Below, piece by piece: positions 8,778-23,092 of a stretch of 35,923 nt of DNA (position 1 is the stretch's first letter; each line of letters starts with the position of its first letter). A program made the translations under genes and the position numbers. The notes below the pieces were generated by a model. The model searched no databases, was not told the DNA's origin, and was given only the letters and a program-made list of their open reading frames with translations. Location: assembly GCA_016180585.1 (NCBI GenBank), contig JACPAX010000010.1, positions 1 to 35,923 on the forward strand, written 5' to 3'. This DNA is from Candidatus Omnitrophota bacterium (GTDB lineage: Bacteria > Omnitrophota > Gorgyraeia > 2-02-FULL-51-18).

Positions 8778-8792
8778 TTTTTTTATGCCTAA

Positions 8793-8808
8793 ATGTAAAC
8801 GTTTTCAT
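8793..8808. promoter_or_regulatory. LacI-type operator (O2), upstream of or overlapping the start of the 1316-aa gene
   Basis: ATGTAAACGTTTTCAT, one substitution from O1. Confidence 0.65.
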
Positions 8809-8811
8809 AAG

Positions 8812-11800
8812 ATGCTTAAAAAGACTGAATCCCGCTTCACAAAAGCCGTCGCGGCAGTGTTGACGCTGGGACTGGCTCTGCAGCCGGCAAGCATGGCCGC
8901 GGGCTTGCCTGCGCCCGCAGGTGTCTCCGGATGCGCCGGACAGTTTCTTCGATTAAAAGAGACTATTCGAGGGACCAATGGTAAACGGATTGTGCATATT
9001 CAGGATGCTCACGCCAACTTATCGGGCCAGGAGAACCTGGCCAACGGTTTGAGCGAACTGATGAAAGAATACGGCGTCCGGCCGGTGCTGGTCGAGGGCG
9101 GCGAGGGCGATGTGTCGCTCGACCGGTTTAAGCAAAACGCGCCCCGATCGGCTGTTGAGAGGGCGGCGAAAAGTCTCCTCATCGAAGGCAAGCTTGCGGG
9201 AGAGGAATATCTGAGCCTCGTTTCGGACGAAAAAATTCCGCTCGTCGGCATCGAGGACCTGACGCTTTACCGAGAAGGTTTGGTTCGTTATCGCGCGATG
9301 GCCGAGCGGCGCGAAGAGACGCTTGTCTATCTCGCCGAAATCCGGGGCGCTGTTGAGCGATTAAAAGAAAGGTTTTATCCGAAAGAGCTGTTGGGCTTTG
9401 AACGGGCCAAGCGGCGCAGTGCCGGAGAGGGCTTCGAAAATCTTTTGAGGCTTACCCACAAAGGCTTGCCTAGCCATCAGGACGGAGAGAAACTCCTTAA
9501 AGAGTTCGAAACCCTCGAGCATCATGTTTATGTCGTCTCTTTAAAAGGAGAGAGCAAGCGGTTGAGAGACATTGATGTTTATCTTGAGCTTTTTGAAAAA
9601 GCCTGCCAGCTGCGTCTAACTGCGAAAGAGTTCCGATCATGGAAAGTTGTAGCCGGGGATTTTTCAACCGCTCCAATGCTCGCCTTCCTCAACCGCCGGC
9701 TGGCCGACTATGGTTTCGCAGACGGCTATGTTCCCTACCAAGATATTTTGGAAGCGGCCAAAGGACCGATCACCGCATTTTATATTTCGGCAAACGATAG
9801 AGACGAGGCCTTTCTCGCCAACACAGAGCAGGTTTTGGCCCGGACGAACCAAGACACCGCCTTTCTCATCGCCGGAGGTTATCACACCGAGCACTTGAAA
9901 GAGCTTTTTACCGCGAAGGGCTATTCTTTTATCATTTTCACGCCGGTCGTCCATAACGAAACGAACTTCGCCAAGTACGAAAAGCTCCTGCTTTCTCCGG
10001 AGGCCGTACAAACTGGCACAATCCGCATGATGGCGGCCGCCCTGCGGCCGGAGACGCCAAACGAGTTTTATCGGAAGACCGGAGTCCGATTTGCCAACGA
10101 AAGCGATGAACTAAAACTACAATTTCACAAGCTTTGTTCGCGCATGAAAGGGCCCTATCGCTATGCCGATACGAAATATGCGGCCCTTTTCGGAGAGAAA
10201 TGGGAATTCGTCAAGCAAATCGTCCGCAGCGAAGATGTCAACGTGGCGCCAAGCTTTGTCGAGATCCATCCGGACGAGCGTTGCCACAACGACTGCGCGT
10301 ATTGCCGGATCAAAGGTGGAATAGGTCTTAGGAACGTACCTGAGAAGGAAGAAAGCATGAGAGCTGAGCATCTTTTGGGGCTGATTGACGACATCCACGC
10401 CCTCGACCCGAAAGCGTTTATCCGGTTCAGTGGGACCATCGGAGAGCCACTCCTTCATCCCGACATCGCGCGGGCGTTTGAAAGGGTGAAGGAATACGGG
10501 ATGCCTTGGGGAATCACGACCAACGGGCTTTCGATACGCAAAGAAGGCGTCCCCGAGCTTCTTTTGAGCGCCGACTATGTCCACGTGAGTCTCGACGCGG
10601 GAGATGACGAAACGTATGTGCGCTTAAAAAGGGGCAAGCCCGGGTATTTTAAAACAGTCCTCGAAAATATCCGCTTTTTAACGCAGGAGCGCGACCGGGC
10701 TGGAGCCAAGACAAGGATCGTAGTCAGTTTTTTGATTCAGGAGGAGAATTACCGGCAAATCGCGAGTATTAGCGAGCTTTTGAAGGCGATCGGGGTCGAC
10801 TCGTTTGAGATCAAAATGCAGCACTATGACGCCCGTCGCGGCATGACCGACGACGCGGTCCGCGAGGCGTACCAACTCATTGAAACCATTGAGCGTGAAC
10901 ACCAAACCGACCGTTACCGGATTGTCCACGTGCAGGATGAGACTGAGGCCCTGGAAAAAGCAAAGGGCCAGCCGGCCATCGCTTTCCATCGTTGCTATGC
11001 CAACCAGCTGGGTTTGAGCCCGACCATCACACCTCGCCATGAAATCAAGCCCTGCTGTCAGCATTACACCAGGACACTGCCGACTCAGGGCCATTTGGAA
11101 CACAAAAGTTTTTTTGACATCTGGCACAGCCAAGAAAGAAAAGCGGCGCTGGCCCTGGATCCCTCGAAGATTTGCCAGACGTGCTCTCCTTCGGATCTCA
11201 CAATCAATCAGGTGGTGCATTTTCTGGAAGAGGCGAACCGAAAAGATCCGGCGTTTCTTGATTGGGTGGAGGAAAATTTTGTGACTCCGACTGGCGTGCG
11301 GTCGGCGGCAACCATTCAGTACACTTCCGATTTTCCGCTCACCCCTATTTTGCAGGCCCGCAGGGACTGGATAGACGCTTATTTGACGGTGTTCGTGGCC
11401 ACTCACGGTCGCGAAGAATTTAAAGGGCTCGGGACGGCTTTTCTCTATCTTTTAAATGCACCGGTTCCTGAAGTCGGCACTGGCGAATTTGAACCCGACA
11501 GACAATTCGCCCAAGGCATGTATGACAGCTTTTATCGTGAAGCACTCGAACGAAATTTTGAAGACCCGGATTCGAACTACCGGACCCTGCGGCTTCTGCT
11601 GTGGACGCTGGTAGAGCAATACAAAGACCAATTTCGTGAAGCCCAACCGAGCGACGCGCAGGCGCTTGCCGCCTATTTATCGACCGCAAAGCCAATAAAG
11701 CCTCACCCCAAGAAAAATCAAAGCGGCGGACGACTGGCAAAGTCTGTGGACGTGCCTTTTGGCGGCTCAGCGGACCTGAGTTCTTCGGATTTAGAGATGA

Positions 11801-12735
11801 TCCGGTTTATGGGAGTTGAGAGGGCTCTGAAAGAAGACGAATCCTATTCGTTTCTTTTTGAAAAGGGTTGGGGGTTTGTGCGGGTTTCCCCCAAAGACTC
11901 CAACGAAATTTATTTTCGAGGCGCGGAAAACGAAGCGGAGAAAAAAATTAAACTGACGGAAGCGCAAGCTCAAGACGCAAGGCAAAAAGCCTCCGAACGG
12001 AGAAAGGCAACGGTTTCTACCGTTTTGAGGGAGAGAGAAGGGGCGGGTCTCATCGGAGTCCAGGGGATTTTGTCTTTGGATCGCCGGATCCGGGCGGAGG
12101 TGAAGGAAGGCGCTTCCGTCGGGCAGGTGGTATGGGCGCTCGATGGGCTTAGCGCCGAACCGTCTCGCGTGACCCCTGAATTCCGCGGGGCATTGCTGAG
12201 ACTGAAGGAGATTGAGCGCTTTGTCGACGGCTTGGGCGGGCATTTTTCCGTGGAAGTTTTGGATCCCGCGAAAAACAACGTGTTACTCAAGTACGCCCAG
12301 AAGTCCGGTTTTTCCGAACCGGCGGACGGCATGAAAACCACCGTTGTGATTCCCAGCTTCGTGGGGGCCGGCTATGTTTTGGGTCCTGATCGGTCCGCGG
12401 TGATGTACCCGGCCGCCTCGAAAGACGGTGGTCGGATCGAATTGGCCAGGCATCGCCTGACCTCACGGTTGGCTGTGATCGTGAACATGCAGTCTTTGGC
12501 GCTTGGCCATGATCCGGGAAGCAAGCTCCATCCGCAGATTGCCTCGCATCTGGCGGGGATTACCCATTGCTCAAGAACGGAAGCGGAAAACTACGTCAAC
12601 GAGGCTGCGACGCTCAAGACCATCACGCTCTCTTTCCTTGAACGATCGAAGCGTTTCCTCTTCACTTTCAAAATCCTCCTTCAGGAAATCAGCCGCTGGG
12701 CCCGCGCGTCCGAGGCGGTGGATTTGAGCGCATAA
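8812..12735 (+). CDS. Large multidomain protein: signal-peptide-like N-terminus, TIKI/ChaN/EreA-like region, radical SAM domain with SPASM-like Cys region, uncharacterised C-terminus
   Basis: ORF 8785-12735; MLKKTESRFTKAVAAVLTLGLALQPASMAAG; HIQDAHANLSGQENL...LVEGG...IAGGYHTEHLKEL; HPDERCHNDCAYCRIKGG (Cx3Cx2C); EIKPCCQHY...ICQTCSPSD. Start 8812 is an inference because the upstream codons overlap operator O2. Confidence 0.75.
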   Translation: MLKKTESRFTKAVAAVLTLGLALQPASMAAGLPAPAGVSGCAGQFLRLKETIRGTNGKRIVHIQDAHANLSGQENLANGLSELMKEYGVRPVLVEGGEGDVSLDRFKQNAPRSAVERAAKSLLIEGKLAGEEYLSLVSDEKIPLVGIEDLTLYREGLVRYRAMAERREETLVYLAEIRGAVERLKERFYPKELLGFERAKRRSAGEGFENLLRLTHKGLPSHQDGEKLLKEFETLEHHVYVVSLKGESKRLRDIDVYLELFEKACQLRLTAKEFRSWKVVAGDFSTAPMLAFLNRRLADYGFADGYVPYQDILEAAKGPITAFYISANDRDEAFLANTEQVLARTNQDTAFLIAGGYHTEHLKELFTAKGYSFIIFTPVVHNETNFAKYEKLLLSPEAVQTGTIRMMAAALRPETPNEFYRKTGVRFANESDELKLQFHKLCSRMKGPYRYADTKYAALFGEKWEFVKQIVRSEDVNVAPSFVEIHPDERCHNDCAYCRIKGGIGLRNVPEKEESMRAEHLLGLIDDIHALDPKAFIRFSGTIGEPLLHPDIARAFERVKEYGMPWGITTNGLSIRKEGVPELLLSADYVHVSLDAGDDETYVRLKRGKPGYFKTVLENIRFLTQERDRAGAKTRIVVSFLIQEENYRQIASISELLKAIGVDSFEIKMQHYDARRGMTDDAVREAYQLIETIEREHQTDRYRIVHVQDETEALEKAKGQPAIAFHRCYANQLGLSPTITPRHEIKPCCQHYTRTLPTQGHLEHKSFFDIWHSQERKAALALDPSKICQTCSPSDLTINQVVHFLEEANRKDPAFLDWVEENFVTPTGVRSAATIQYTSDFPLTPILQARRDWIDAYLTVFVATHGREEFKGLGTAFLYLLNAPVPEVGTGEFEPDRQFAQGMYDSFYREALERNFEDPDSNYRTLRLLLWTLVEQYKDQFREAQPSDAQALAAYLSTAKPIKPHPKKNQSGGRLAKSVDVPFGGSADLSSSDLEMIRFMGVERALKEDESYSFLFEKGWGFVRVSPKDSNEIYFRGAENEAEKKIKLTEAQAQDARQKASERRKATVSTVLREREGAGLIGVQGILSLDRRIRAEVKEGASVGQVVWALDGLSAEPSRVTPEFRGALLRLKEIERFVDGLGGHFSVEVLDPAKNNVLLKYAQKSGFSEPADGMKTTVVIPSFVGAGYVLGPDRSAVMYPAASKDGGRIELARHRLTSRLAVIVNMQSLALGHDPGSKLHPQIASHLAGITHCSRTEAENYVNEAATLKTITLSFLERSKRFLFTFKILLQEISRWARASEAVDLSA

Positions 12736-15163: not shown

Positions 15164-15199
15164 AGCTCTGTTGACGTTCTGTGGACACCAGAGGTATTA

Positions 15200-15317
15200 G
15201 GTGCCAGAGGGGTCAGACCCCCCTGGCACCGGATGTTCTGGCACTGGATGTTTAGGGGGTGCGGATGGGGGTAAAGGGATAAAATAGGTGCCAGGGGGGT
15301 CTGACCCCTCTGGCACT
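15200..15317. repeat. Pair of inverted 31-bp copies of GGTGCCAGAGGGGTCAGACCCCCCTGGCACC
   Basis: 15200-15230 and 15287-15317 are reverse complements except the last base; 56 bp apart. Confidence 0.85.
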
Positions 15318-15505: not shown

Positions 15506-18500
15506 ATGCCCGGAAAATTTCGTCTTTTAGGAAGGGCCGTCGCGCTTTTTTTATCGGCGAGCCTTCTGATTCAAGACCTCTCCGCCGCGGCGGCGCTTGA
15601 AACGACGCTGTGGGCGAACCCGCCGGCGACCGATCCGGCGCTCGTGAAGTTTTCCCCTTCGGTTGCCGGCACGCGCGAATGGCACAAGGGTCCCCGCGGC
15701 CGGCTTCTCATCCATATCCAGGACGCGCATACCAACCTCAGCGCCCAGGAAAATCTGGCGGAGGTCCTCAAAGCGCTCATCCGCCGCTACCGGGTCAAAA
15801 CGCTTTTCGCCGAAGGCGGCAGCCGCAACGAGTCGCTGGCGTTCTTAAGGCCGCTCGCCGGAAAAGACGCCCGCGAGCGCGTCGCCAAGAAGTATCTCCT
15901 CCGCGGCCGGATGAACGGCGCCGAGTATTTCAGTCTCGCCTCGGACGAGGAATTGGCGATCGAGGGGGTGGAGGACCCCGCCCTTTATGAGAAAAATTTA
16001 AAGAGCTACGCCGCGATCGTCAAAAAAAGAGAAGGCGTCCTCGCGTATCTGGACGAGATCGCCGAAAGAATTTCCATCGTGAAGCGCCGGCTCTATCCCG
16101 AGGCGATCGTGGCGTTCGACGATTTTCTGGAGCGGTTCAGGGCGGGCGAGGAGGATTTCACGGAGTACGCCGGGCGGCTCGAGGAAGGCGCGGCCCGTTA
16201 TCGCGTGAGTCTTTTGGGTTTCCCCAATTTTCTCTCGCTTCGCAATTTAAAAGCCCGGGAAGCGACGATTGATTTCCCCCGCGCGAACGAGGAGCAGGAC
16301 CGCCTGATCCGTCTCCTCGTCTCCTCCGGCGCGGTCCGGGCCGAGGAAATCCGGAATCTCGCCGGGCCGGTCGATCGGGTGAAGTCCCGGACCTACAACC
16401 CCTACGGTTTCTACCGGACCCTGATGGACACGGCCAAATCCGCGGGGATCGACCTCTCCGGATTTCCCAATCTTGAGCGCTACGCCGAATACCTGAAAAT
16501 TTACTCCGGCGTCCAGGCCGAAGACCTTCTCGAAGAGACGGATCTTCTCACGGAGATGATTTACCGCGCGGCGCTCACCGACCCCGACGCGGTCTATCTC
16601 CGCCAAATCGCCGACCACACCGAAAACCTGAAGGGCCTTTTCTCGCTCCGGATCTCAAGCGGTCATTTCGAAAAATACGCCGCGCGCAAGGACGATCTGC
16701 GCTTCAAGACGGTGGTGTGCCTGGCTTTCCTCAATCAGAAGCTCATGGAATACGGAAACGTCTCGGACGTGATTCATTACCTGCCGCTGGTGAGCGACCA
16801 CGAAAAAGAAGTCGAGGATTTCTACCGCACCGCGCGCGAAAGAGACGAGGTCTTTGTCCGGCGCGCGCTCGCCCGGATGGAGGCAAAAGACATCCCGGCC
16901 GCGGCGCTTCTGGCCGGCGGTTATCACACCGACCACCTCAAGGAGCTTCTCAAACAAGAAGGCGTCTCCTACGTCGTCGTCACGCCCAACGTCACGCAGG
17001 AGACCAACCTCAAGCGCTACGAGGAAATCCTTCTCGGTGGCTTAAAAGACAAACCCCGTTTTTCGACCATACCGAAAGCCGTTACCGCCGGACAGACAGA
17101 TGGTTTGATGCCGCGTTGGGTCGCCGAGCAAGTCGCAAACGTCGATCGTTTGCAGTCGGATCTGACGGTTGGTGCGGGTGTGCGGTTGACCAAACCCAAG
17201 ACTAGTGTCCGGCCGGCGGGATTGGCTCCATTACCCGCTGAAAGTGTCGCGCAGCTTTTGGAGAATCAAGGACATCGTATCGCCGGAGAGGGCACCGAGT
17301 TTTCTGTGAACAAGGCGCTTATCAATCGTGACTATTTTCCCGAGCTTAACGATGGACGCTTTTGGAAGGCCGGCATGTCGAATATCTCCGGCGCTCAATC
17401 GAACATCGCTCAAAGAGAGCTTCGAGGGAATGTGCGAAGTGATCGCGGCGACAATCACATCCTGATGGACGCCATTGAATCTGTCGGAGGAAATAACGAG
17501 AGCTGGGCGCCGTTTAAACGTGGAGAAATCAGTGAAAGGAAACGGGATAAGAACGACGTCGGCTTGTCTAAAACCGGTCATACACCAAGTCGTCGGGATT
17601 ATTCCAGAAGTCAAAGGACTTCTCCGCGGACTTTAAAAGTCCCAAATCAGCCCTGGAGATTTTCAGAAGATGAGGCAAATCACGCAGAAGCTTCCGCTGT
17701 TCGGCAAGATCCGCATTCGAGATCGCCTCTTCAATCGTTTTTAAAGACAACTCGCTTTTTATCATCGTTCCGGTCTCCAAGCGGGACTATACCACATTTT
17801 ATTTTTCTTATCAATTCTTCCGCTGTTAAGCCGGCAAGCGGCCTGATGCAGGGCTGGGTCCTTGAGGGCGACAACCCGGGCCTGGTGAGCCCCGCGCGCC
17901 TGCGGTCGGATCTGGCCGCGGGACCCGGCACGCGGGCGGTGACCGAAGGCGGAGGGCGGAGGGCGGAGGGCGGAGGGCAGGCGGCTGAAGGCGGGGAGCT
18001 TATTCGCCTGCGGGAGGAGGTCAGAGTATGGGGCGGCCGTGTCACCGAAAAGATCAATGCAGGGAATTTGGAGGGCGCGGAAGATGATTTCCGGGAGTTG
18101 GAGTCCGCGCTTGATCGCTTGCTTCGCTCTCCCTCGGCGGGCGCACTTGAAGACCTTCACCACGAGATCAAAAACGTGATCGGTCGCGCCAACCGGCTTG
18201 CGGCCAAGCATCTTGACCGGGCAAGGGATGTCCGGAGCCTGCCGGATTTGGACAGGGCTTTGGCCTACCTGAAGATTGCCGGAGAAATGTTGAAGCGGCA
18301 CGAATCGACCAACATACAGCTGGAGGCGTTTTTCTTTCTGGTAGCCTGCGCCAAGGCCCCCGGCGTTTCCTTGCTGTTTTTTGAGGAGATGGGTGTCTTG
18401 ATGCGGGCGCCGCTCCTTGAGCGGCTCGGCGGGCTTTTGGATCAGGCCAGAGGTTTTTACGAGTCGGGGGAATTCAGCTCGTTTTTGAAGGGCAATGACA

Positions 18501-21500
18501 ACAAAAAAGACCGGGGGCCTTTTCTGGCCGATGCTTACCGAATGATGAGGAGTCTATACAGCCAGGCCGATTTCGACACTCTCTCCCAAGCGGCGGGAGA
18601 AACCGCAGGGAGGCTGGAAGCCCTGTGGGACCCCGGAACGAGAGGGGGCGGCGGCCGGTCCGCGCTGGGTGGAATCGAGCGGGCGGTAGGCACGGTCACC
18701 ATTTTTTTGCACCCGCATGGCAAAGGGTATTTGAAGGAGGATCTTTCCGTCACTTCGCTGCCTGTGCCAGCGGGCGCCGACCCTAATGACGAAACAGCTC
18801 AAGACCAAATCGCTCAAATAGTAAAAGATCGTCTCGAGGTTTTAATTCAAGAGCAGAATCCTGATAAGGTACGTCTTGCGATCGCGGACGCTTCGGGAAG
18901 AGTGGACCTTGACGGATCGCAAGAGATCCTCCTGAAAGCGGCGAACGCTTTGCTGGATGGACTTTCTCCGGAACAAAGTGAAGCGCTGGGCAAGATTGAT
19001 TTTGCCGCCGGGGTGCTCGGAACCGAAGAGTCCGCGGCGCTGCCCGCGTCGCCTCTCGCGCGCTCGAATCCGGCGCCGATCGTCCGCATTCCCGGGCCCG
19101 GCGCCCCGCGCGAAAATGGGTCTCCCCCTGCTGCCATTAGAGTCGAATCCCCGGATCAGAAGGTCGAGCTGCCCGAGGGCAAGGATAGGGACTGGCTGGT
19201 TCGTAGGGGACAACCGTTTGAGGAAGAACTTCGGGAGACGCTGAGGTTTGTCAGGTCCGGCTTTAAACCGAACGGGGTAAGAACAACAGAAGCGCTTGTG
19301 CGGCAAGCCGGGAAACACTTGAGGACGGCCTGGCAGGCGGAAGATTTGTTGAACGGGGCCATTCAGAAGCTAAGAGCGGCGGATTCCAATTCTTGGGGTT
19401 GGACGAGCTCCGCTACTAATGACCTTGAAAAATTCATCGCAAAACCGGCAAACGTAGAAGGCGATCAAAGTTTCAGGACAAAGCTTTCTCCGCCGGCCTT
19501 GCCGGCGGCCCTCCGATGGCTTGACGATTTCATCTCCAGATACTCCAGCGGCGCTTCCCATTTTCCGGAGGCCTCCTATAGCGATATTCAAGAGGCCCGG
19601 AAGCTTATCGCCGATTTACTCGCCGATTACCGCGCAAAAGAATCCACCGGCGGAGGTTTGCAGTCCACGGGGAATGGAGTTCGACTCGCCGGGTTTGAGG
19701 CGCCGGACGAGGCGCAGGCCGGCAGGCTGAGGGCCTGGCTGGAATCGCTTTCTTATGTGCGCGATAGCCGGCTGGTGAATTTCCTTTTTCAGCTGACCTC
19801 AAGAAACGAATCCGCGGCCAAAACTTTTGCGGGGAAGCGCTCCAACGGGTCTCTTGTCTCGGCGGCGTCGACGGCTGCGTCAAGAAACGGCGTGGATTTG
19901 GATGAGCTTGTTCCGGCGCAGGAAAATCTTTCGCCCATCATTCGCTTGCGCCGGGCCATCCTCGACAACGGGCTCCGAGACATCCTGGGGCAGAAAAGGT
20001 CCTCGAGAAGAAATTCCGAGGCCGGAAAGGGGACGGCCTGGAAAAACAATACGGATCTATTTGGCTTGGCTCGCCGTTCTTCCCGCCCCGGTCTCTCCGG
20101 CGGGCGGGCCGCGGAAAGTCTTTCGGAGCTCCTGAGTCTAGCCGAAGACGCGGCATTCCGGGAGATCGTCATCGCCGAAGATAGGCCGTTTACGCGCCAA
20201 ACATGGAAAGAATGGTCGTCGCTTGCATTGCCGCCAAACCTCAAGGTCGTCATTCTGGAGAATGGCCAAAAAGCCCTGGATTATTGGTCAGCCCATCGGA
20301 GTCGGGTGGGGCTGATTATTTCCGACAACGGGATGCCCAAGATGAGCGGGAAGAAATTGTTAGAAAAGATCCGGGAGTCGGGGTCCCATGTCCCTTTTAT
20401 TCTTACCAGCGGAGAAAGAGTTTTGATCGGGCCGGATGAAAATCTTGTGGTAGCCAACCGGTCCTTGGCCTCATCCAGGAACGTGATCGAAGTGCCGAAA
20501 ACGATCCCTTTAGATTATTCTATGGGCGTTATCATAGATGTGGCCGCCAAACTCTTCGGGCGTTCGCTGGGACAAGCCCGCCCCTCTCCAAAAAATGCTC
20601 CCGCCGGAGTCGCCGGCAGGCCGGAAAACCCCGCCGGCGGCCGGGCGGCAGTTGAGGAGTTCGGAGCAGGGAGTGCGGGGAGTCTGCAAGAAGAGATGGA
20701 GAGAAATCAGATCACCCATCGCCGGCCCCCGGAGGGAGGCCCGGATTCCAGGCCGGCGCCGCGTTTTTCCGGCGGTAGTCACAACGGCGGTCCCATCCAT
20801 TCCTTGTCGGTGAACCGAAAAACGGGGGCCTTGCCCCTCAAAACACTCCATCCCCTGGCCGAAGATCAAATTCGGGAGGCGGGACTCCTGATGGTGCAAG
20901 CGCGAAGGGTCTCGGAGGATTTGTCAAGGCTTACCTCCGATTCCTCTTTGTCGACGATGGAAGATTTGTTGAATAAACAAGCGGCTTCGCTGTCGAGAGC
21001 CATGAGGCTTCTTCGGCAGGCGCTACCAAACGCGTCCCAAAACCAGCTTCACACGGCAAAGCCGGTTTTGGAAGGGATCGCCGCGGTTGCCGGTGAGCTG
21101 GCGGGGAACTACCGCATTTTGTCGGCGGCCTACCATGAGGTGAACGGTTCAAAAGAGACGACCTACGCGAAGCAGTCGGCCAAGTTTTCGGATTGGGCGA
21201 GTGAGAATTTTGAGCCGTCCGGCGGGCGGTTTGCGACGAGCCTAGCGCAGAACAGGCTTATTGCGGTCAACCTAGCAATGAACCCCGGGAGTTCATTGGT
21301 ACCAATGAACTCCCGGGGTTCATTGGGGTCGCGGTTGGGGATCATCCCCCAATCGGCTGTTTCCGGTCCCACAGCCAAACCGGCCTCCGAGGTTGGCATG
21401 CAGCCAGCCTCTCCCGAGGATCAAGCAGCCGCTGTGGCGTTGTATCTTGAATTTGTTCAGAGAAGTCAGGTTTATCGAAGCGAGATAGTAAAAGCTATTG

Positions 21501-23092
21501 CTTCAAAAGGACGCTTTGTTGACTTATTGATAGACAATTATTCAGGATTGAGAGTGGAAAGTTTTGATATTACCAGCCGCGACGATATTGAAACTTTGAC
21601 CGGTTTTTTTCGGATTACTCCGGCGGATATTTTGCATGCTATACAGACGGAATTTGGCACTAAACCAAATAAAAAGTTTTTGCATGGTCAAAACAATATG
21701 GGCGCATATTTTTATTTGAGAAAGCATCCAGGTGAAAAGATTTATACGTCTAGAACGAACGGAAGAAAGGGTATTATCGTTGTCTCCTCACGAGAAATCC
21801 TTCAAGAATTACTGTTATGGTCAAAGAGCGGTCTCTTACCGGCGGGGTTGACTTTTAAGGTCACAGAACAAACCAACAAAGGCGCTTACCAAGGCGCCAC
21901 CCTTTCGTTTCAGAATCAAGATGAGACAGCCGAAGTATTTGCTAGTGACGCCGAAGCCATTGTAAACGCTCTGAATCGGTTGGCTGGCTGGCGGTCGGCG
22001 TTGTCCCCAGAATCGGAGACGAGCTTGAGCTTGGACCAAGTGAAAGCTGTCAACGCGCAGAACAGGCTTATGGCGGTCAACCTGGCAATGAACCCCGGGA
22101 GTTCATTGGTACCAATGAACTCCCGGGGTTCATGGGGGTCGGTGATTGTGGTCCCGACTTCTCTTGGGACGTTGACCGCGCCGGGCGTGTCGCCACCGAC
22201 GGTAATTGCTAATTCGTTTAGGGTGACTCCGGACGGCGCGTTGTACCGCAGCGCGAGCGTGTTTGATTTCGAAGCGGATCGGCCGGGGCCGGAGTTTTTC
22301 AAGGAAGGACCTTTGAACAAGAGTCAAATGCTTGAGGAGGTCAGACACGAAAGGCGGAAGGCAACGCCTCTGCCAATACCAACCTACGAGGTTGGTAAAG
22401 GCGAAGGCTCGGGATTTATCTCCGACATCCGGGAATCGGTCGCCCGACTCGGGGCAGGAGAAACAGGCGTGGTCGCCATTGACGTGAACGCTTTCTTTGA
22501 TTCAAACGGCGATCTCCGGGCCTCGGACTTTTCCGGAATCCTGCAGAGGCTCAACAGCTCGCTCGCGTTTGAGCGTTTGAAGGAAAGAAACATCCGCGTT
22601 CTCTTCTACGGCGAGCACCCCCATCCGCAGGCGATTGAAAGAAAACTTCAGGGAATAGGCCGTCTCTTCGGCGGGAATTTTACCTTAAGCTTCGCCGGGG
22701 CCCTCGAGCCGGGGGTCGGCCTCACCGAGGCCATTGAAAAAGCGCAAGTCTCTCCGGGCGTCCACGACCCCAAGCTGATGTCCGTGATTTACGCCGAGAA
22801 AAACGCCGGGGAGCTGGCCCTCAGGCCCGGCATCTCCTACGTGCAGATGAAGTCTTCCGCGCGGCCGGGGGAGACCCTCTCGGCCATGCCGCTTCTTATC
22901 GGCTTGGCGCTGTGGTCCAACCCCGATGTTCAGAGCCTGCCGTTTGAGCTCAGGAAATATCTCCAAACTACCCTCGTCTTTACCGTCGCCGGCAAACAGA
23001 TCAGCATCCCCGTTTTCATGCCCATACCCATCTCCGAAGCGGACCTTTTCTTCACCGCCCTTTCCCGCAAGGCCGTCCTCAGCTCGGTATAA
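15506..23092 (+). CDS. Giant multidomain protein (2528 aa): signal-peptide-like N-terminus, TIKI/ChaN/EreA-like region, helical regions, receiver-like domain, palindrome-encoded linkers, HAD-like C-terminal region (low confidence)
   Basis: Continuous ORF; FRLLGRAVALFLSASLLIQDLSAAAALE; LIHIQDAHTNLSAQENLAEVL...LLAGGYHTDHLKELL parallels the 1316-aa protein; REC-like LIISDNGMPKMSGKKLLEKIRES. Contains an antisense TA module and could be fused or disrupted. Confidence 0.7.
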   Translation: MPGKFRLLGRAVALFLSASLLIQDLSAAAALETTLWANPPATDPALVKFSPSVAGTREWHKGPRGRLLIHIQDAHTNLSAQENLAEVLKALIRRYRVKTLFAEGGSRNESLAFLRPLAGKDARERVAKKYLLRGRMNGAEYFSLASDEELAIEGVEDPALYEKNLKSYAAIVKKREGVLAYLDEIAERISIVKRRLYPEAIVAFDDFLERFRAGEEDFTEYAGRLEEGAARYRVSLLGFPNFLSLRNLKAREATIDFPRANEEQDRLIRLLVSSGAVRAEEIRNLAGPVDRVKSRTYNPYGFYRTLMDTAKSAGIDLSGFPNLERYAEYLKIYSGVQAEDLLEETDLLTEMIYRAALTDPDAVYLRQIADHTENLKGLFSLRISSGHFEKYAARKDDLRFKTVVCLAFLNQKLMEYGNVSDVIHYLPLVSDHEKEVEDFYRTARERDEVFVRRALARMEAKDIPAAALLAGGYHTDHLKELLKQEGVSYVVVTPNVTQETNLKRYEEILLGGLKDKPRFSTIPKAVTAGQTDGLMPRWVAEQVANVDRLQSDLTVGAGVRLTKPKTSVRPAGLAPLPAESVAQLLENQGHRIAGEGTEFSVNKALINRDYFPELNDGRFWKAGMSNISGAQSNIAQRELRGNVRSDRGDNHILMDAIESVGGNNESWAPFKRGEISERKRDKNDVGLSKTGHTPSRRDYSRSQRTSPRTLKVPNQPWRFSEDEANHAEASAVRQDPHSRSPLQSFLKTTRFLSSFRSPSGTIPHFIFLINSSAVKPASGLMQGWVLEGDNPGLVSPARLRSDLAAGPGTRAVTEGGGRRAEGGGQAAEGGELIRLREEVRVWGGRVTEKINAGNLEGAEDDFRELESALDRLLRSPSAGALEDLHHEIKNVIGRANRLAAKHLDRARDVRSLPDLDRALAYLKIAGEMLKRHESTNIQLEAFFFLVACAKAPGVSLLFFEEMGVLMRAPLLERLGGLLDQARGFYESGEFSSFLKGNDNKKDRGPFLADAYRMMRSLYSQADFDTLSQAAGETAGRLEALWDPGTRGGGGRSALGGIERAVGTVTIFLHPHGKGYLKEDLSVTSLPVPAGADPNDETAQDQIAQIVKDRLEVLIQEQNPDKVRLAIADASGRVDLDGSQEILLKAANALLDGLSPEQSEALGKIDFAAGVLGTEESAALPASPLARSNPAPIVRIPGPGAPRENGSPPAAIRVESPDQKVELPEGKDRDWLVRRGQPFEEELRETLRFVRSGFKPNGVRTTEALVRQAGKHLRTAWQAEDLLNGAIQKLRAADSNSWGWTSSATNDLEKFIAKPANVEGDQSFRTKLSPPALPAALRWLDDFISRYSSGASHFPEASYSDIQEARKLIADLLADYRAKESTGGGLQSTGNGVRLAGFEAPDEAQAGRLRAWLESLSYVRDSRLVNFLFQLTSRNESAAKTFAGKRSNGSLVSAASTAASRNGVDLDELVPAQENLSPIIRLRRAILDNGLRDILGQKRSSRRNSEAGKGTAWKNNTDLFGLARRSSRPGLSGGRAAESLSELLSLAEDAAFREIVIAEDRPFTRQTWKEWSSLALPPNLKVVILENGQKALDYWSAHRSRVGLIISDNGMPKMSGKKLLEKIRESGSHVPFILTSGERVLIGPDENLVVANRSLASSRNVIEVPKTIPLDYSMGVIIDVAAKLFGRSLGQARPSPKNAPAGVAGRPENPAGGRAAVEEFGAGSAGSLQEEMERNQITHRRPPEGGPDSRPAPRFSGGSHNGGPIHSLSVNRKTGALPLKTLHPLAEDQIREAGLLMVQARRVSEDLSRLTSDSSLSTMEDLLNKQAASLSRAMRLLRQALPNASQNQLHTAKPVLEGIAAVAGELAGNYRILSAAYHEVNGSKETTYAKQSAKFSDWASENFEPSGGRFATSLAQNRLIAVNLAMNPGSSLVPMNSRGSLGSRLGIIPQSAVSGPTAKPASEVGMQPASPEDQAAAVALYLEFVQRSQVYRSEIVKAIASKGRFVDLLIDNYSGLRVESFDITSRDDIETLTGFFRITPADILHAIQTEFGTKPNKKFLHGQNNMGAYFYLRKHPGEKIYTSRTNGRKGIIVVSSREILQELLLWSKSGLLPAGLTFKVTEQTNKGAYQGATLSFQNQDETAEVFASDAEAIVNALNRLAGWRSALSPESETSLSLDQVKAVNAQNRLMAVNLAMNPGSSLVPMNSRGSWGSVIVVPTSLGTLTAPGVSPPTVIANSFRVTPDGALYRSASVFDFEADRPGPEFFKEGPLNKSQMLEEVRHERRKATPLPIPTYEVGKGEGSGFISDIRESVARLGAGETGVVAIDVNAFFDSNGDLRASDFSGILQRLNSSLAFERLKERNIRVLFYGEHPHPQAIERKLQGIGRLFGGNFTLSFAGALEPGVGLTEAIEKAQVSPGVHDPKLMSVIYAEKNAGELALRPGISYVQMKSSARPGETLSAMPLLIGLALWSNPDVQSLPFELRKYLQTTLVFTVAGKQISIPVFMPIPISEADLFFTALSRKAVLSSV
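17231..17581 (-). CDS. PemK/MazF-like toxin (type II TA), antisense within the giant ORF
   Basis: MTGFRQADVVLIPFPFTDFSTFKRRPALVISSDRFNGVHQDVIVAAITSHIPSKLSLSDVRLSAGDIRHAGLPKASIVKLGKIVTIDKRLVHRKLGAL; ATG overlaps antitoxin stop by 14 nt. Confidence 0.87.
   Translation of the reverse strand: MTGFRQADVVLIPFPFTDFSTFKRRPALVISSDRFNGVHQDVIVAAITSHIPSKLSLSDVRLSAGDIRHAGLPKASIVKLGKIVTIDKRLVHRKLGALSGDTMSLILQKLRDTFSG
17568..17765 (-). CDS. Probable cognate antitoxin
   Basis: MIKSELSLKTIEEAISNADLAEQRKLLRDLPHLLKISRADLGLLKSAEKSFDFWNNPDDLVYDRF; directly upstream of toxin; GGAG SD about 9 nt before ATG 17765. Confidence 0.75.
   Translation of the reverse strand: MIKSELSLKTIEEAISNADLAEQRKLLRDLPHLLKISRADLGLLKSAEKSFDFWNNPDDLVYDRF
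17786..17814 (-). promoter_or_regulatory. Sigma70-like promoter of the antisense TA operon
   Basis: On minus strand TTGATA (17814-17809), 17-nt spacer, TATAGT (17791-17786), then GGAG and ATG 17765. Confidence 0.75.
17949..17986 (+). repeat. GGAGGGC tandem repeat (G-rich)
   Basis: GGCGGAGGGCGGAGGGCGGAGGGCGGAGGGCAGGCGG encodes EGGGRRAEGGGQAAE-type linker. Confidence 0.85.
19490..19508. repeat. In-frame hairpin CCGCCGGC-CTT-GCCGGCGG
   Basis: Perfect 8-bp stem inside the giant ORF. Confidence 0.7.
21245..21330 (+). repeat. Copy 1 of in-frame palindromic repeat (48-bp perfect palindrome 21277-21324)
   Basis: AATGAACCCCGGGAGTTCATTGGT|ACCAATGAACTCCCGGGGTTCATT; encodes NRLIAVNLAMNPGSSLVPMNSRGSLGS. 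Confidence 0.95.
22055..22140 (+). repeat. Copy 2 of in-frame palindromic repeat (46-bp perfect palindrome 22088-22133)
   Basis: Near-identical to 21245-21330; encodes NRLMAVNLAMNPGSSLVPMNSRGSWGS. Confidence 0.95.
22378..22396. repeat. In-frame hairpin ACCAACCT-ACG-AGGTTGGT
   Basis: Perfect 8-bp stem inside giant ORF. Confidence 0.65.

Follow-up and report, generated by a model that had tools for sequence, protein, structure and literature searches.

Toxin–antitoxin operons appear to reside antisense within giant genes of Omnitrophota

Type II toxin–antitoxin operons (PemK/MazF, HicAB, PIN/VapBC and DUF433/DUF5615) and HEPN/MNT modules (type VII) are two-gene operons in which a family-typical toxin is paired with its antitoxin. 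The cassettes described here share this build, but each is nested antisense within a different gene, in whose phase it avoids stop codons. Chromosomal superintegrons gather many unrelated toxin–antitoxin modules as cassettes in a long variable array, which the cassettes may stabilise. The giant genes studied here likewise gather many unrelated modules in a long variable array that the cassettes may stabilise, but this array is one giant reading frame with SSPV or GARLA linkers, to which the cassettes run antisense. In Rickettsia palindromic elements, inserted DNA stays in frame and is translated within the host protein. Here too the insert is in frame with its host and would be translated within it, although it comprises a promoter and two genes of its own over ~0.6 kb, whereas theirs is a short palindrome; Rickettsia palindromic elements in protein-coding genes are named in PMC3767692 and PMC2694212. 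Giant ORFs of Omnitrophota, which resemble ours in phylum, great length and poor conservation, have been described in a paper whose main text makes no mention of toxins or antisense genes (PMC10066038). A search of the literature outside preprints for toxin–antitoxin systems together with Omnitrophota, giant genes or antisense returned no report of the arrangement. Little is understood about the giant genes of these bacteria, which are uncultured and probably symbiotic. Stop-free antisense toxin–antitoxin operons would be an independent line of evidence that each giant ORF is translated as one frame. They would also hint at a way for genes of this size to withstand deletion, and would present a natural example in which both coding strands are selected at the same time.

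The PemK operon and its host gene

The window, meaning the whole 35,923-nt stretch of Candidatus Omnitrophota DNA that was analysed, carries a PemK/MazF-like toxin gene and an overlapping antitoxin gene on its minus strand (Table 1). The first-pass annotation had described this pair together with its own promoter and a GGAG Shine-Dalgarno sequence, and we recovered every element. The toxin matches PF02452 with E=2.6e-20 and 73.1 bits (cut-off 23.1) over profile positions 1–107 of 109, and its PDB matches are MazF6, MazF, EndoA and PemK chains. By the PF02452 match over its length, the protein is a member of the PemK/MazF toxin family with predicted sequence-specific endoribonuclease activity. 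The antitoxin matched no Pfam family above cut-off. Toxin homologues were found in genomes G042, G144 and G125, with an antitoxin homologue upstream (56% identity in G125, 52% in G144 and 72% over 29 aa in G042, where a contig edge cuts the copy), and because the same pair recurs in all three, conservation indicates a genuine operon. As is typical of type II operons, the overlapping antitoxin is conserved with the toxin, which it is predicted to neutralise. The other complete PemK cassettes also have a similar promoter directly upstream of the antitoxin. Within the window cassette, GC is 0.46–0.54 compared with about 0.6 on either side.

Table 1. Coordinates of the operon, its flanks and the host giant gene in the window
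Feature	Position	Strand	Remarks
Host giant gene, 2528 aa	15506–23092	+	stop-free ORF
Conserved N-terminal domain of giant, about residues 1–545	15506–17140	+	matches in 42/59 relatives
Left linker-like flank, GLMPRW...GVRLTK	17102–17194	+	weak similarity to right flank
PemK/MazF-like toxin, 116 aa	17231–17581	-	PF02452 PemK_toxin
Antitoxin, 65 aa	17568–17765	-	14-nt overlap with toxin; conserved partner of homologous toxins
Shine-Dalgarno, GGAG	17778–17775	-	9 nt before antitoxin ATG
Predicted promoter, TTGATA-N17-TATAGT	17814–17786	-	upstream of antitoxin ATG at 17765
Right linker-like flank, GLMQGW...PARLRS	17840–17908	+	weak similarity to left flank
87-nt repeat with 50-bp palindrome, copy 1	21245–21331	+	in frame in giant
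Second copy of the palindrome-bearing 87-nt repeat (97%)	22055–22141	+	in frame in giant
Conserved C-terminal domain of giant, about residues 2316–2525 (last 210)	22451–23080	+	homologues in relatives

The plus-strand giant ORF stays open through the entire minus-strand pair, in agreement with the earlier reading of this region. The toxin gene is in register with the giant's codons, and TTA, CTA and TCA are absent among its 13 leucine and 12 serine codons, which bears out the codon avoidance proposed for it at first pass; the antitoxin stands in a different phase relative to the giant. Identity in the giant's N-terminal domain is 69% within the same genus and 33–50% across most of the family, and the homologues of its C-terminal domain in G004, G012 and G006 stop 1–13 residues short of the stop codon. 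Because both ends match a single 3117-aa ORF in the relative G006, the window giant is, by homology, one gene. The middles of giants are highly variable between relatives, which align with the window giant to about residue 545–602 and diverge beyond. A search for relatives without residues ~570–770 had been suggested as a check, and no relative has a counterpart of residues 576–770 except in other antisense PemK cassettes.

Further along the giant, both 87-nt repeats contain a near-perfect palindrome of 50 bp, and the low-GC stretch that they bracket (~21400–21900) is possibly another in-frame insert. Elsewhere in the window, a second long ORF (8785–12735, 1316 aa) has an N-terminus paralogous to the N-terminal domain of the giant, and two 30-nt palindromic repeats of the GTGCCAGAGGGGTCAGACCCCCCTGGCAC type lie upstream of the giant gene (15198–15316).

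Openness of the host phase and recurrence of the cassettes

To compare the open host phase with chance, we made synonymous recodings of each toxin–antitoxin stretch, with codon weights chosen to match its GC3, and counted stops in the three antisense phases. For the window operon, 8.1 host-phase stops were expected and none was present; not one of 5000 GC3-matched recodings left this phase open, while the other two antisense phases held 4 and 11 stops (6.1 and 10.7 expected). The host phase was open in nine PemK cassettes including that of the window, with simulated probabilities between 0/5000 and 0.048 and with the other phases near expectation. The recoding model is simple, and its tendency to overestimate stops is gauged below on HicA. 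The open host frame across the operon is not due to chance; dual coding would imply that both strands are expressed.

The window operon had been treated as a single case; it is now one of many. A class-wide PemK search yielded several loci with antisense frames running across the entire fetched locus. Clade B, a second PemK clade, combines an AF2212-like antitoxin with PemK, and a profile of it picked out seven strong members from four families. Each of the seven is antisense within a long ORF or at its edge, and in every one the same antisense phase is fully open, including two with a GC3 of only 0.32–0.34. In G138 the host spans 6600 codons of the part that was read and 8721 codons on the contig, and the host in G057 6021 codons; weaker clade-B cases are G288 (an ORF of 368 codons at a contig edge), G278 (508 codons) and G364 (likewise at a contig edge). 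When the hosts were compared all against all, similarity was found almost only across the cassette, and the cassettes therefore occupy different places. More distant PemK toxins (L094–L099 and L103) had stops in every antisense phase. These results describe the best-scoring loci in fragmented genomes of one class. Five contigs (L077, L081, L106, L107 and L084) end ~80–530 bp from a PemK cassette, as if cassettes were repeated or varying in the population.

HicA provided a sample chosen regardless of setting, consisting of 30 of the best loci. HicA lay antisense in an ORF open through the whole fetched locus of 2.1–3.2 kb in 9 of the 30, and in sense within such an ORF in none; at the remaining loci no frame except HicA's own exceeded 200 codons. 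ORF lengths through HicA were bimodal (<=200 or >=720 codons). Embedded HicA genes had 0 host-phase stops where 25.2 were expected. Non-embedded ones also fell below expectation (41 stops against 69.9), which indicates that the model's expectation is somewhat too high, yet ~15 stops would still be predicted in the embedded genes after scaling by 0.59. In larger stretches, HicA hosts extended to 6633 codons or more, and one that was complete had 2762 codons. In a tree of these short proteins, embedded HicA fell mainly into two groups spanning many families, consistent with giant-resident lineages.

Cassettes were located with Pfam, since scanning codon usage by itself overlooked those in G000, G057 and G125. 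Antisense ORFs in giants matched DUF5615/DUF433, HicA/HicB, HEPN/MNT, DUF2283 with weak DUF4258, and AF2212-like/PemK. Among 120 antisense ORFs in four further giants, twelve Pfam families were matched, each of them either a toxin–antitoxin component or a model overlapping another on the same protein, and NCBIfam matches in these giants were VapB15, a PIN toxin, VapC and MntA. No Pfam match was obtained for 90 further antisense ORFs or for 97 same-strand off-frame ORFs in giants. More than one cassette was present in several giants. On the host strand, a deacetylase precedes and PfkB follows the cassette in G057, and TPR, GAF and HD precede the cassettes in G138. The arrangement recurs with several unrelated toxin–antitoxin types, and addiction modules thus seem to reside opposite the coding strand of Omnitrophota giants.

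Flanking repeats and the origin of the arrangement

The two linker-like flanks of the window cassette are weakly similar, as 2 of 500 codon shuffles score as high, and GVRL in the left flank resembles the GARLA linker of the family. Giant proteins repeat a short, lineage-specific linker motif many times (GARLA in L022, L018, L020, L021 and L061; SSPV in L077, L078, L080 and L107), and cassettes often adjoin these linkers. In G138, the linker DNA CGCCTCCTCGCCGGT recurs to the left and right of the cassette. The insert in G057 is flanked by a perfect 66-bp direct repeat, with its copies 906 bp apart. Our search for empty sites found no joined flank in GTDB genome contigs or in the relatives of G057 and G138; we attribute the lack of an empty site for any insertion to the fast divergence of the giants. 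The left flank, searched in G000 and G001, found only itself. Two candidates from G001, of the same genus, were rejected: a short 538-aa orthologue, whose contig stops just before the site, 18 bases beyond the match, and G001:C166, which matches the region right of the cassette but has unrelated sequence upstream.

The anatomy of the cassettes, their antisense orientation, their recurrence in unrelated hosts and the depletion of host-phase stops make it probable, in our assessment, that the window holds a complete type II toxin–antitoxin operon lodged antisense between the domains of a real giant gene and kept stop-free because translation of the giant passes through it, as one case of an arrangement that recurs in this Omnitrophota class with autonomous cassettes of several toxin–antitoxin families. 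The first-pass annotation had left two origins open, a cassette inserted and retained as a translated linker, or two genes fused across it. The former is supported by the G006 ORF, by the divergence of relatives past residues 545–602 and by the unrelated open hosts. A fusion of neighbouring genes across an intergenic operon, after mutation had removed its antisense stops, would agree with the highly variable middles of giants and with the outcome of the empty-site searches. Yet ~8 stops would have had to vanish, both ends of the giant lie in one ORF of the 3117-aa relative, the same clade-B cassette sits in unrelated hosts and the insert in G057 is bounded by its 66-bp direct repeat, so that we regard fusion as quite unlikely.

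Chance is an extremely improbable explanation; long antisense frames would simply be common, and translation of the giant ORF would not cross the region. GC near 0.6 does lengthen spurious ORFs, and the locus was picked at first pass because it was open, but the simulations were matched for GC3 and amino acids, every clade-B member is open even at low GC3, ORF lengths through HicA are bimodal and a conserved C-terminal domain follows downstream of the cassette. The cassette could also serve to regulate the giant gene, whose expression would be tuned by antisense transcription or by an RNase toxin, as the predicted cassette promoters point against the giant and many of the toxins belong to families that target RNA. 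This role appears unlikely to account for the arrangement, as many unrelated families occupy non-homologous positions in non-homologous hosts, which suggests that there is no conserved regulatory site.

If the operon is indeed a cassette lodged in a translated gene, the giant would be read through it, and cassettes would move between giants, probably via the short repeated linker sequence, where recombination would preserve the frame. An antisense orientation would let a cassette keep its own promoter and escape the transcription of the giant, and would leave a phase that synonymous changes can hold open. Loss of a cassette-bearing segment would free the toxin; cassettes may thus be maintained as selfish passengers, with a possible stabilising effect on the giant gene. 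Addiction, stabilisation and regulation are proposed functions of the cassettes. Only tentatively do we extend this to a general picture, in which Omnitrophota giants would be nests of antisense toxin–antitoxin operons of many families, dual-coded for their own proteins and for giant linker, moving as cassettes with an open antisense phase and protecting the giants from deletion.

Among the antisense ORFs in giants, the only candidate other than a toxin–antitoxin part is L106:144–551 in the G374 giant, with a weak aspartyl-protease-like match. Counting against the proposed arrangement, the giant ORF of G150 terminates within a HicB-like/PIN-like cassette on its antisense strand (L079:3846–4494), a possible case of an insert that cut its host ORF.
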